Source: Thauera sp. (lineage in GTDB: Bacteria > Pseudomonadota > Gammaproteobacteria > Burkholderiales > Rhodocyclaceae). From it: 64,000 nucleotides of DNA. The notes below the pieces were generated by a model. It did no database searches. It saw only the letters and a list, made by a program, of their open reading frames with translations, and was not told the DNA's origin. The position numbers and the translations under genes were made by a program. The stretch lies in contig JAFLDS010000009.1 of the NCBI GenBank assembly GCA_017302295.1, positions 62,001 to 126,000 on the forward strand, read 5' to 3'. Below, one piece after another: positions 5,787-9,619 of this stretch. Numbering within the stretch: the first letter of the stretch is position 1; every line of letters begins with the position of its first letter.

Positions 5787-6533
5787 TCATGCGACGCGAC
5801 GGAACACCAGGTCCCACACGCCATGGCCGAGCTTGATGCCGCGGTTCTCGAACTTGGTCAGCGGCCGGTAGTCGGGGCGCGGCGCGAAGCCGTCGGCAGT
5901 GTTCTGCAGCGCGGGCTCGGCGGAGATCACCTCAAGCATCCAGTGCGCGTAGTCCTCCCAGTCGGTGGCGCAGTGCAGGTAGCCGCCGGGCGCGAGCTTG
6001 CTCGCCACCAGCGCGACGAATTCGGGCTGCACGATGCGGCGCTTGAAGTGGCGCTTCTTGCGCCACGGGTCGGGGAAGAACAGATGCACGCCGGCGAGTG
6101 CGCCGTCGGCGATCATGTCGCGCATCACCTCGACGGCGTCGTGCTGCATGATGCGCAGGTTGGTGAGCCCGCCTTCGGCGATCAGCTTGCACAGCGCGCC
6201 GACGCCGGGCGTATGCACCTCGATACCGAGGAAGTCGTGGTCGGGCATCGCCGCGGCGATCTTCGCGGTGGTTTCGCCCATGCCGAAGCCGATCTCGAGG
6301 ATCTTCGGCGCCTTGCGGCCGAACGCGGCATCCAGGTCGAGCGGCGCCACGCGGTAGTCGATGCCGATCTTCGGCAGCATGTCGTCGAGGTAGCGATGCT
6401 GCGCTTCGGACATGCGGCCCTGGCGCAGCACGAAGCTGCGGATGCTGCGGCTGGAGAAGCGATGCTCGGGGCTGTCGCGACCGATGATCTCGACGCCGGC
6501 CACCGGCTCCTGCCTGTCTTGCACGTCGCTCAT
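5787..6533 (-). CDS. trmB: tRNA (guanine-N7-)-methyltransferase TrmB
   Basis: A 248-residue SAM-dependent methyltransferase that makes m7G46 in the tRNA variable loop. The Rossmann motif [12 protein letters not shown] and the family-specific [17 protein letters not shown] are present, as is the C-terminal TKFENRG. The N-terminal [14 protein letters not shown] is typical of proteobacterial TrmB. It overlaps the upstream thiG by 4 bp (ATGA), so it is translationally coupled to thiazole synthesis genes. thiG-trmB linkage is common in betaproteobacteria. Confidence 0.96.
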
Positions 6534-7315
6534 GAACCGATCAGCCCCTGCGTCGGCGAGCTAGGGTCGGCCGAATAGAACTTGCGCGGCATGCGCCCGG
6601 CAAGGAAGGCCTCGCGGCCGGCCTCGACCGCCTTCTTCATCGCGCTCGCCATCAGCACCGGCTTGCCGGCGGCGGCGATCGCGGTGTTCATCAGCACGCC
6701 GTCGCAGCCCAGCTCCATCGCAATGGCAGCGTCCGACGCGGTGCCCACGCCGGCATCGACCAGCACCGGCACTTTCGCGTTATCGATGATCAGGCGCAGG
6801 TTCCACGGGTTGAGGATGCCCATGCCGGAGCCGATCAGCGAGGCGAGCGGCATCACCGCGACGCAACCGATCTCTTCGAGCATCTTCGCCTGGATGGGGT
6901 CGTCGGCGCAGTAGACCATGACGTCGAAGCCGTCCTTCACCAGCGTCTCGGCCGCCTTCAGCGTCTCGGGCATGTTGGGGAACAGACTCTTCGGGTCGCC
7001 CAGCACCTCGAGCTTCACCAGCGCATGGCCGTCCAACAGCTCGCGCGCCAGGCGCAGCGTGCGCACCGCATCGTCGGCGGTGTAGCAGCCGGCGGTGTTG
7101 GGCAGGATGGTGAATTTCTCCGGCGGCAGCGCGTCGAGCAGGTTGGGCTCGCCCGGGTTCTGGCCGATGTTGGTGCGGCGGATGGCGACGGTGACGATCT
7201 CGGCACCGCTGGCGTCGATCGCCTCGCGCGTTTCGGCGAAGTCCTTGTACTTGCCGGTGCCGACGAGCAGTCGCGAGTTATAGGACTTGCCGGCGATGAC
7301 GAGGGGGTCGTTCAT
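6530..7315 (-). CDS. thiG: Thiazole synthase ThiG
   Basis: This 261-residue TIM-barrel enzyme builds the thiazole phosphate of thiamin from 1-deoxy-xylulose 5-phosphate, dehydroglycine/iminoglycine and sulfur delivered by ThiS thiocarboxylate. Visible motifs are [11 protein letters not shown], the imine-forming lysine in VKLEVLGD, and [20 protein letters not shown] for phosphate binding. The ATG at 7315 gives the usual N-terminus ([20 protein letters not shown]); the open frame extends 15 codons further but without family similarity. It lies 95 bp downstream of thiS; that gap holds a small hairpin. Confidence 0.96.
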
Positions 7316-7382
7316 GGTGGGGACCTGGAAAAGAAAGTTCTGACTTGTGGGCACGGACAATTCGCGGCGGGGAACCCGCCTC

Positions 7383-7402
7383 CCTCCCCTTCAAGGGGGA
7401 GG
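7383..7402. repeat. GC-rich hairpin between thiS and thiG
   Basis: CCTCCCC and GGGGAGG form a perfect 7-bp stem around a 6-nt loop, in the 95-bp gap between thiS and thiG. There is no T-run on either side, so it is not a convincing terminator; it may be an intergenic palindromic repeat or an mRNA processing/stability hairpin. Confidence 0.5.
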
Positions 7403-7410
7403 CGCCGGAT

Positions 7411-7614
7411 CTATCCGCCACCCACCGCAACGACGATTTCGAGCCTGTCGCCGTCGGCAAGTTGCACCTCGGCATGGCGCGCCTTGGGCACGATCTCGCC
7501 GTTGCGCTCGACCGCGAGGCGCTTGCCGGCGAGGCCGCGCGCCTCGAGCAGCGCGCGCACGGTGAGACCGGATTGCAGGGATTCGGACTGGCCGTTGAGG
7601 GTGACCTGGATCAT
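7411..7614 (-). CDS. thiS: Sulfur carrier protein ThiS
   Basis: A 67-residue ubiquitin-fold protein ending in the required Gly-Gly (VAVGGG). The C-terminal glycine is adenylated and then converted to a thiocarboxylate, which donates sulfur to ThiG. The MIQVTLNGQ start and the [10 protein letters not shown] segment fit the family. It is the first gene of the minus-strand thiS-thiG-trmB-sppA run and is divergent from metX. No TPP riboswitch could be recognised in the short upstream gap. The extra glycine at the very end is seen in some homologues. Confidence 0.93.
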
Positions 7615-7670: not shown

Positions 7671-7699
7671 TTGACTTTTCCCGGGCACGGCGCTACTTT
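7671..7699 (+). promoter_or_regulatory. Probable sigma-70 promoter of metX
   Basis: TTGACT (7671-7676) and TACTTT (7694-7699) are separated by 17 bp. The -35 is good (5/6) and the -10 is weak (3/6). Transcription would begin near 7706, exactly where the riboswitch aptamer begins, which supports the assignment. Confidence 0.45.
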
Positions 7700-7706
7700 C
7701 CAGCCA

Positions 7707-7764
7707 TAGCGCCGATTTGAACCAACAGCTTGCGGGCGCTCAATAAATCCGGCTAAAGCGAGGG
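7707..7764 (+). promoter_or_regulatory. SAM-II (SAM-alpha) riboswitch aptamer upstream of metX
   Basis: The element reads in order: AGCGCC (7708-7713), GATTTGAACC, TTGC, GGCGCT (7735-7740), CAATAAAT, GGCTAAA and GAGGG. This follows the known SAM-II order of a P1 5' strand, GAUUUAACC, UGC, a P1 3' strand, GAUAAAU, GCUAAA and a purine-rich end. The P1 stem AGCGCC/GGCGCT is a perfect 6 bp. SAM-II aptamers bind S-adenosylmethionine in an H-type pseudoknot and repress methionine genes, mostly metA/metX in alphaproteobacteria. Its position 44 bp before metX is as expected. A covariance-model hit would settle it. Confidence 0.82.
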
Positions 7765-7766
7765 CG

Positions 7767-7799
7767 ACCCAGTCCGCGTTTATAGCCGGCTGGGTTTTT
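7767..7799 (+). terminator. Intrinsic terminator in the metX leader, expression platform of the SAM-II switch
   Basis: ACCCAG (7767-7772) pairs with CTGGGT (7790-7795). A further CCG (7774-7776) pairs with CGG (7787-7789) past a one-base bulge, and the stem runs straight into a T-tract (TTTTTCGTTTT) just before the metX ATG. The 3' arm can pair instead with the aptamer: TAGCCGG (7783-7789) is the exact complement of CCGGCTA (7749-7755). That alternative pairing would break the terminator and would also use up the GGCTAAA part of the pseudoknot, so the two states exclude each other. Confidence 0.72.
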
Positions 7800-7808
7800 C
7801 GTTTTCAG

Positions 7809-8945
7809 ATGGCGATCATGATCCAACCTCAATCCGTCGGCATCGTCGTGCCGCAGAAGGCGCGCTTCACCGAGCCGCTGCCACTGCGCAGCGGCGGCAC
7901 GCTGGACGACTACGAGCTGGTGTACGAGACCTACGGCACGCTCAACGCGACGCGCAGCAACGCGGTGCTGGTGTGCCACGCGCTGTCGGGCTCGCACCAT
8001 GTCGCCGGCACCTACGCCGGCGACGCGGGCAGCACCGGCTGGTGGGACAACCTCGTCGGCCCGGGCAAGCCGCTCGACACGCGCAAGTTCTTCGTCATCG
8101 GCGTCAACAATCTTGGCAGCTGCTACGGTTCGTCCGGTCCCAGCACGGTGAATCCGGCCACCGGCAAGCTGTGGGGGGCGGATTTTCCCTTCGTCACCGT
8201 CGAGGACTGGGTCGAATCCCAGGCACGGCTGGCCGACCGCCTCGGCATCGAGCGCTTCGCCGCGGTGATCGGCGGCAGCCTGGGCGGCATGCAGGCACTG
8301 TCGTGGACGCTGCAGTACCCGGAGCGCGTCGGCCATGCCGCGGTGATCGCCTCGGCGCCCAAGCTCACTGCGCAGAACATCGCCTTCAACGAGGTGGCGC
8401 GCCAGGCCATCCTCACCGACCCCGATTTCCACGGCGGGCACTATTACGAGCATGGCGTGGTGCCGGCGCGCGGCCTCAAGCTGGCGCGCATGGTGGGCCA
8501 CATCACCTACCTCTCCGATGACGCGATGGCGGAGAAGTTCGGCCGCAGCCTGCGCCACGGCAAGGCGGTGTACAGCTACGACGTCGAGTTCGAGATCGAG
8601 TCCTACCTGCGCTACCAGGGCGACAAGTTCGCCGGCTTCTTCGATGCCAACACCTATCTGCTGACGACGAAGGCACTGGATTACTACGACCCGGCATTCG
8701 AGCACGGCGGCAACCTGAACGCGGCGCTGGCGCGCGCCACCGCGAACTTCCTGGTGGTGTCGTTTTCCACCGATTGGCGTTTCGCCCCGGAGCGTTCGCG
8801 CGAGATCGTGTATGCGCTGCTGCACAACCGGCGCAACGTCAGCTACGCGGAGATCGACAGCGCCGCCGGCCACGACTCCTTCCTGCTCGACGATGCGCGC
8901 TACCACGCGCTCCTCGGCGCCTGGTTCGACCGCATCGAGGTTTGA
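7809..8945 (+). CDS. metX: Homoserine O-acyltransferase MetX
   Basis: A 378-residue alpha/beta hydrolase that acylates homoserine, the first committed step of methionine synthesis. The nucleophile elbow IGGSLGGMQ carries Ser157; the acid is the Asp of FSTDWRF and the base the His of [10 protein letters not shown], giving the catalytic triad. The family includes acetyl- and succinyl-CoA users; beta/gammaproteobacterial MetX proteins are often succinyltransferases, which cannot be decided by eye. The start could be ATG 7809 or the in-frame ATG 7818; neither has a clear Shine-Dalgarno. It is preceded by a SAM-II switch and terminator and followed by metW. Confidence 0.94.
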
Positions 8946-9028: not shown

Positions 9029-9619
9029 ATGACCTCCTACCGTTACGACTACGAAGTGATCACGCAGTGGATCGAGCCAGGCGAGAAGGTGCTCGACCTG
9101 GGCTGCGGCGACGGTGACTTGCTGAAGCACCTGATGCAGGTGCGCCAGGTGCAGGGCTACGGGGTCGAGAACGACCCCGACAAGTTGCTGGCGAGCGTGA
9201 GGAGCGGGGTCAACGTGATCCAGATGGATCTGGAGAAGGGCCTCGTCGGTCTCGAGGACGGCTTCTTCGATCACGTCATCATGAGCCTGTCGCTGCAGGC
9301 GATGCAGAACACGCAGGGCATCCTGCGCGAGATGTTGCGCGTGGGCCGCGAGGCGGTGGTGAGCTTCCCCAACTTCGGCTACTGGCGCCACCGCCAGAGC
9401 ATCCTCAACGGCCGCATGCCGGTGTCGGAGAGCCTGCCGCACCAGTGGTACAACACGCCCAACGTGCGCTTCTTCACCATCGCCGACTTCGACGCCCTGT
9501 GCGAGATGAACGGCATCGCGGTGCACGAGCGCCTGGCCTTCGACGAGGGCAAGCTGGTGCTGGAGGAGCCGAACTTTCTCGCCAGCGTGGCGGTGTATCG
9601 GCTGGGACGCATCAGCTGA
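9029..9619 (+). CDS. metW: MetW, methyltransferase-like partner of MetX
   Basis: A 196-residue protein of the MetW family. It has a class I methyltransferase fold with VLDLGCGDGDLLKHL as motif I, ENDPDKL, and the family-specific FPNFGYWRHRQSIL. MetW is linked to MetX in many proteobacteria and is needed for methionine formation, probably by acting with MetX on homoserine acylation; its enzymatic role is not settled. It lies 83 bp downstream of metX, so both are likely controlled by the SAM-II leader. Length is normal. Confidence 0.94.
   Translation: MTSYRYDYEVITQWIEPGEKVLDLGCGDGDLLKHLMQVRQVQGYGVENDPDKLLASVRSGVNVIQMDLEKGLVGLEDGFFDHVIMSLSLQAMQNTQGILREMLRVGREAVVSFPNFGYWRHRQSILNGRMPVSESLPHQWYNTPNVRFFTIADFDALCEMNGIAVHERLAFDEGKLVLEEPNFLASVAVYRLGRIS

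Follow-up and report, generated by a model that had tools for sequence, protein, structure and literature searches.

A probable SAM-II riboswitch with a terminator and a competing antiterminator ahead of metX in Thauera sp.

The leader of metX in Thauera sp. raises the question of whether a SAM-II riboswitch here acts on transcription, and whether this would be of note in a betaproteobacterium. It was analyzed within the window, the whole 64,000-nucleotide stretch of contig JAFLDS010000009.1 under study, and its features are collected in Table 1. The initial annotation had described a SAM-II aptamer followed by an intrinsic terminator, with CCGGCTA in the aptamer and TAGCCGG in the terminator pairing as an antiterminator that competes with both; the motifs which it quoted, among them ACCCAG/CTGGGT and the T-run, were all found at the places given. 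Its suggestion that transcription control in this group is of note does not hold as a novelty, as terminator-linked SAM-II elements were already reported in alpha- and beta-proteobacteria in 2007 (Barrick and Breaker 2007, PMC2258182). Earlier work had described many SAM-II elements as carrying putative terminators and had found the class a few times outside the alpha-proteobacteria (Corbino 2005, PMC1273637), and a 2009 paper lists it as most common in Alpha-, Beta- and Gammaproteobacteria (PMC2704228). The locus in the window is an ordinary one, a known riboswitch class doing a known job.

Table 1. Features of the metX leader and adjoining genes in the window
Feature	Position	Strand	Basis or remark
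Promoter, whole	7671..7699	+	promoter-like pair in 73/75 compact metX leaders
Promoter -35, TTGACT	7671-7676	+	sequence
Promoter -10, TACTTT	7694-7699	+	sequence; 17-nt spacer after -35
SAM-II aptamer stem P1	7708..7740	+	AGCGCC 7708-7713 with GGCGCT 7735-7740; RF00521 match
Loop L1 GATTTGAACC, holds GATTTGA	7714..7723	+	ATTTGA invariant in 64 distinct leaders
AGCTTGC, pseudoknot P2 5' strand	7727..7733	+	TTGC at 7730-7733; GCTTGC invariant in 64 distinct leaders
Joining strand CAATAAAT	7741..7748	+	alignment
GCTAAAGC, pseudoknot 3' strand and putative SAM pocket, also part of antiterminator	7752..7759	+	invariant in 64 distinct leaders
Antiterminator 5' strand, holds CCGGCTA 7749-7755	7749..7765	+	MFE structure, hairpin energy, loop-shuffle p=0.003
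GAGGG	7760-7764	+	sequence
Antiterminator 3' strand, holds TAGCCGG 7783-7789	7772..7789	+	MFE structure, loop-shuffle test, hairpin energy
Intrinsic terminator	7767..7799	+	stem 7767-7774/7788-7795, 8 pairs, 13-nt loop; terminator in 74/75 leaders
Terminator T-run, after ACCCAG/CTGGGT	7795-7799	+	sequence
metX (homoserine O-acyltransferase)	7818..8945	+	NCBIfam NF047916, 673.5 bits, cut-off 560
metW, next gene	9029..9619	+	NCBIfam TIGR02081, 244 bits, cut-off 189.5

The leader and its assignment to SAM-II

The order on the plus strand is promoter, aptamer, intrinsic terminator and metX, the product of which is a homoserine O-succinyltransferase by its NCBIfam name. The conserved start of metX is the ATG at 7818 and not 7809, the ATGATCCAACC start being common to many relatives; the longer frame that opens at 7809 extends upstream of it. 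No clear Shine-Dalgarno sequence was seen directly before ATG 7818. Divergent minus-strand genes (6530-7614) look from their sequence like thiS (7411-7614) and thiG, so that the metX promoter is confined to 93 bp, from 7615 up to the aptamer. Transcription would be expected to start near 7706. A simple promoter and terminator scanner reported neither feature in the window, a miss attributed to a -10 box with 3/6 matches and to the 13-nt terminator loop.

The RF00521 model (SAM-II, SAM_alpha) matched plus-strand positions 7699-7773 over model positions 1-79, scoring 27.9 bits (E 1.4e-4 for a search of 301 bases and 4.6e-4 genome-wide), which was the best match in the genome (4.1 Mb in 53 contigs scanned). 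The next match (16.7 bits, E 0.51) was considered as a second SAM-II copy and rejected; by the layout of this locus (L002) it lies inside a 464-aa open frame which, judging from sequence, is presumably part of an integrated mobile element. An Rfam match above threshold, the lack of which the initial annotation had named as refuting its reading, was not obtained, as nothing in the window reached the gathering score of 36. This cut-off was treated as an operational threshold and not as a structural feature, and because copies with the same consensus fall on both sides of it (42.8 bits in genome G193 of the same genus, 52.0 bits in the order-wide metX leader L132) the lower score was not taken as refuting the assignment.

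In common with SAM-II (the metA element), the leader has P1 and the pseudoknot strands, a promoter just upstream, a terminator downstream and met genes, here metX-metW and in relatives likewise methionine or SAM genes. The pocket stretches GATTTGA, GCTTGC and GCTAAA are kept in the window according to both the RF00521 match and the leader alignment, with GATTTGA and AGCTTGC both enclosed by P1. GATTTGA in L1 is presumably the third strand of the expected SAM pocket. The window differs from RF00521 SAM-II in its score, in its CAGCTTGCGGGCGC core, in a P1 which near the window is almost fixed as (A)GCGCC/GGCGC(T), and in a P2 that is short outside the pocket, the long P2 helix of many SAM-II RNAs not being evident. 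The leader was not unusually stable as a stand-alone fold (z -1.53 for 7707-7808, 13/200 shuffles as good; z -0.78 for the shorter 7707-7786, 40/200 as good). With an ordinary fold and a silent scanner, the case rests on comparison with relatives.

Conservation of the leader among relatives

Relatives were sought with the MetX protein as query, and of the 375 detected the 80 best loci were kept; their labels are mostly those of Thauera, Azoarcus, Aromatoleum, Zoogloea and kin. A compact aptamer precedes metX in 76 of these 80, and in 77 when L080 is included. In this Azoarcus MAG (L080:3817-3928) a roughly 60-nt imperfect inverted repeat is inserted in the aptamer after P1, with the terminator and pocket strand kept; since L080 has an aptamer, a count of four aptamer-free leaders was dropped. 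No aptamer was found in the MAG metX leaders L063, L070 and L081, two labelled Betaproteobacteria and one Azoarcus. The leader alignment, window included, holds 77 sequences, 64 of them distinct, and a slightly stricter pattern gave 75 compact leaders, again with the window.

Among these 75, a promoter-like pair was present in 73 and a terminator in 74, L047 being the one leader in which none was recognized, compared with about 0% and 2% of shuffles. The same pair and terminator were found in 21 and 25 of the 26 high-scoring RF00521 copies of the family, and in 41 and 60 of 68 order-wide copies (one place held twice; shuffles 1% and 3%).

P1 is paired in 99.7% of cells of the leader alignment; close to the window, variation of both partners is limited to its outer pair (AU/GC/UG/CG). 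Across the order the compensatory types GCGCC/GGCGC, GCGTC/GACGC, GTGCC/GGCAC, ACGCC/GGCGT and TCGCC/GGCGA were observed, and the five inner positions were all paired in 167 of 169 pattern-fitting sequences (duplicates included), L150 and L151 being the exceptions. The pocket pairs of P2 are invariant and hence silent for covariation. Beside the pocket one pair covaries order-wide (62/97 against 49.6 by permutation, with 3/2000 permutations as high), the only one of 12 position combinations beyond the invariant pair, which lends modest support to P2 next to the pocket. The proposed SAM-II identity is supported by the RF00521 homology, by P1 covariation and by the occurrence of the aptamer in 77/80 leaders.

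As judged by eye, extra hairpin-like inserts of differing sequence separate the 3' strand of P1 from the A-rich joining strand in L122, L124, L125, L128, L165 and L167, which come from several families of the order.

Terminator, antiterminator and the proposed switch

The intrinsic terminator right after the aptamer, as had been proposed, was borne out by its presence in nearly all compact leaders and by covariation. It is paired in 96.6% of cells of the leader alignment, and 4 of its 8 pairs show changes in both partners (11/500 shuffles give as many); the count of pair types was not above that in shuffles.

The CCGGCTA/TAGCCGG pairing forms the core of a 16-pair antiterminator which in the window is exclusive with the terminator and shares a strand with the aptamer. 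Its computed hairpin energy is -24.1 kcal/mol vs -11.5 for the terminator, and P1 is compatible with either; a competing antiterminator is supported in the window by these energies and by the loop-shuffle test (p=0.003). In MFE structures of prefixes grown in 2-nt steps, the antiterminator appeared at 7776 and was complete at 7790, before the T-run. The terminator probability in the window rose from 0.00 in the free RNA to 0.92 with the pocket strand blocked. For 57 distinct leaders this probability was below 0.5 in 19 when free and above 0.5 in 55 when blocked. The free RNA at equilibrium favours the terminator in 38 of the 57, so that in these the antiterminator would be kinetic or absent.

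When only the terminator loop was shuffled, 30 of the 47 distinct leaders tested, window included, gave support for the antiterminator at p<0.05; the 17 unsupported comprise 10 of Zoogloea type, 2 of Tepidiphilus and 5 others, mostly Azoarcus MAGs. L084 and L086 form an almost perfect antiterminator with the unrelated loop CGCTTTGGC (-25.1 vs about -12.5 for shuffles), although at equilibrium the terminator remains favoured in their full-length folds. With loops swapped among 95 leaders, the own loops gave a mean of -11.53 kcal/mol vs -10.63 when permuted, and 0/5000 permutations were as low, a statistic that ignores kinship among the 95. The antiterminator as drawn from the window is paired in 77.4% of cells. 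Two of its pairs change on both sides, as in shuffles (366/500 reach 2), and the number of both-side-changed cells is 11 vs 5.2 in shuffles, with 2/500 having as many; little covariation is expected, as most of its 5' strand coincides with the pocket strand, which is nearly invariant. Conservation of CCGGCTA/TAGCCGG, which the initial annotation had named among its tests, held for the GGC/GCC core, paired in 60, 63 and 61 of the 64 distinct leaders, but not for the flanking pairs, which were lost in 25 to 37 of them, nor for the Zoogloea and Tepidiphilus leaders tested, none of which supports an antiterminator. Support for the proposed switch is thus good within the group to which the window belongs, and other groups have a different platform.

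We conclude that the metX leader is very probably a SAM-II riboswitch acting as a transcriptional OFF switch, a reading based on homology, conserved parts, covariation, exclusive pairings and computed energies; the transcription start, SAM as ligand, binding in the pocket, the change in termination and the inclusion of metW in the transcript are what we infer in the model. RNA polymerase would start near 7706 and make the aptamer first. With SAM bound, GGCTAAAGC would be held in the pseudoknot and could not pair with TAGCCGG, so that the terminator (7767-7795) would form and transcription would stop at the T-run just ahead of metX. Without SAM, GGCTAAAGC would pair with 7772-7789 as the antiterminator, which would also take the upper part of the terminator 5' arm and allow metX-metW to be transcribed.

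An aptamer that acts mainly on translation, hiding the SD-like GAGG at 7760-7763 on SAM binding, is unlikely. There is no clear SD just before ATG 7818, the window and most aligned leaders outside Zoogloea, Tepidiphilus and Uliginosibacterium contain GAGG, and a precedent exists in Sinorhizobium metA, where SD masking was proposed with the translation start 74 nt further on (PMC9373788); however, Zoogloea leaders read GACGG, so that GAGG is not kept, and the terminator is kept in 74/75. We give little credence to a real aptamer followed by a terminator that is a constitutive attenuator, the free-state antiterminator being too rare, as maybe in Zoogloea. The 38/57 leaders with the terminator favoured at equilibrium, and Zoogloea loops that are no better than shuffles, would fit it; the far more stable antiterminator in the window and close kin argues against it, as do L084 and L086, which rebuild the antiterminator with a different loop, though their equilibrium fold favours the terminator.

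That the same fold senses a ligand other than SAM, such as S-adenosylhomocysteine, or a protein is highly improbable: the Rfam score is sub-threshold and SAM binding here is a prediction, but GATTTGA, GCTTGC and GCTAAAG are kept, relatives of the element stand ahead of methionine-pathway genes, and SAM-II rejects SAH (PMC1273637). The conserved feature could hardly be a small RNA encoded on the opposite strand, the reading implied by Rfam RF02424 (Bp2_287). This model matched the opposite strand in 11 of 20 order-wide loci tested, two over its cut-off, and weakly the window (10.4 bits, E 4.2); against it, the promoter, T-run, aptamer consensus and downstream met genes are all on the other strand.

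Distribution and names of the RNA in Burkholderiales

The pattern GATTTGA-GCTTGC-GCTAAAG occurred order-wide in 187/399 genomes and within the family in 132/199; the backward control gave no match among the rows listed. RF00521 exceeded its cut-off in 33 of the same 199 and reached E 0.1 or better in 130, while 2 of 14 control genomes matched at E 0.1, none over the cut-off. Rfam cut-off scans would therefore miss most copies in the family (33/199 genomes pass vs 132/199 with the motif). Among 70 order-wide loci examined, in which L148 duplicates the place of L128, metX was found downstream in 23 by tblastn. Family searches on 45 of the 70 added 13 Cys/Met-metabolism PLP enzymes (metZ-type), 6 of metH type, 2 MetN-like proteins (under the NCBIfam cut-off) and a few others; several of the 45 gave no downstream family, and searches with guessed reading frames of L122, L121 and L139 led nowhere. 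R1, our own model built from 42 window-group aptamers, was applied to 62 of the 70 loci and detected 60, all in sense orientation. It missed L126 (inside a Mg-transporting ATPase gene) and L146, which were taken as chance pattern matches. Across the phylum R1 matched 73/299 genomes at E 0.01, of which the weakest may be chance.

Several unusual arrangements were observed among these loci. A threonine ammonia-lyase-like gene (L147:222-1427, minus strand), with a SAM-II element 73 nt upstream, is an unusual target. L139 carries, on one strand, a SAM-I/IV riboswitch (1018-1122; 61.1 bits, above its cut-off) and, some 370 nt downstream of this, a SAM-II element (1494-1546); SAM-I/IV and SAM-II pairs have been mentioned (PMC9481103). 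Tandem SAM-II-like aptamers on one strand were found with R1 in 17/62 loci (L121, L149, L152, L170-L180, L182, L186 and L187), some second matches being weak. As novelty this was dropped, as 44 cases are already in PMC9481103. By eye, a terminator follows the first copy and many second copies read GAGTTAATCGACAACTTGC or similar; the second copy stands 39-105 nt before an ATG in 14/17. Downstream of the tandems in L149, L152, L170, L171, L173-L176 and L178-L180 stands a small conserved ORF that begins with MYDC or MFDC (called at 99-115 aa), and in L149, L152 and L170 a MATE transporter gene comes next. Pfam returned no family for four of these proteins.

Two published RNAs resemble the leader. 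Leyn 2014 (PMC4239095) described a 'novel' metXZ RNA upstream of metXW or metZ in 35 beta-proteobacteria, with a pseudoknot and a potential terminator/antiterminator; the available text names no ligand and gives SAM_alpha only in Rhizobiales and Rhodobacterales. Its consensus has an A-or-C position which would fit AAAT[AC]CGGC here. Of its features, the position ahead of metX and the terminator were found in our leaders, and P2 covariation in 1/12 position combinations. Comparing by description (same genes, group, architecture and A-or-C position), we think that metXZ is this RNA.

Rfam lists RF02424 (Bp2_Cand287_SIPHT) as an sRNA and models it on the opposite strand; the consensus printed for it corresponds to the aptamer motif and terminator in reverse complement. 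Among the 20 loci, RF00521 gave matches in 12, of which 4 reached 36 bits or more, and RF02424 in 11, of which 2 exceeded 70. All 11 RF02424 matches lay on the strand opposite the aptamer; the best were L122:1460-1632 (minus, 203.9 bits) and L124:1412-1588 (plus, 157.2 bits). On rescanning L122, a 12.7-bit partial sense-strand RF02424 match fell at the near-palindromic terminator. RF00521 gave no match in L122, L124 or L123 in the 20-locus scan and only 11.9 bits in L122 on rescanning, so that the tie between RF02424 and SAM-II rests on the shared motif and on R1 (L122 32.0 bits, E 6.7e-8; L124 38.9 bits; L123 30.8 bits for a match to part of the model). RF02424 looks like a wrong-strand model of this leader. 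Its source paper names a likely cis element upstream of methionine genes and used RT-PCR on cDNA primed with oligo(dT) (PMC3521395), which we take not to prove the strand. A review equates Bp2_287 with RIT77 (135 nt by coordinates) and BTH_s31 (PMC10987360), the latter of 143 nt (PMC4035088), and these sizes would suit a terminated leader. A terminator likewise follows the SAM-II element of Sinorhizobium meliloti metZ, although in an Alphaproteobacterium and ahead of a different gene, and there an RNA of about 100 nt was more abundant at high SAM (Scheuer 2022, PMC9373788).

The metXZ element, RF02424 (on the wrong strand), RIT77/BTH_s31 and SAM-II are probably one Burkholderiales SAM-II family in which the pocket strand doubles as antiterminator and the platform was rebuilt several times, including leaders seemingly without an antiterminator. 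No link of metXZ or Bp2_287 to SAM-II was found in titles or abstracts of the open-licence PMC literature searched, and the new part may be the link between the names metXZ, RF02424 and SAM-II in Burkholderiales. For annotation, the value lies in an Rfam family apparently on the wrong strand and in a published methionine element without a ligand in the available text; if the one-family reading is true, that element gains a testable one, SAM. The Thauera-Azoarcus leaders, in which the strand that folds around SAM would also be the antiterminator, offer a compact system for tests of co-transcriptional SAM-II switching.
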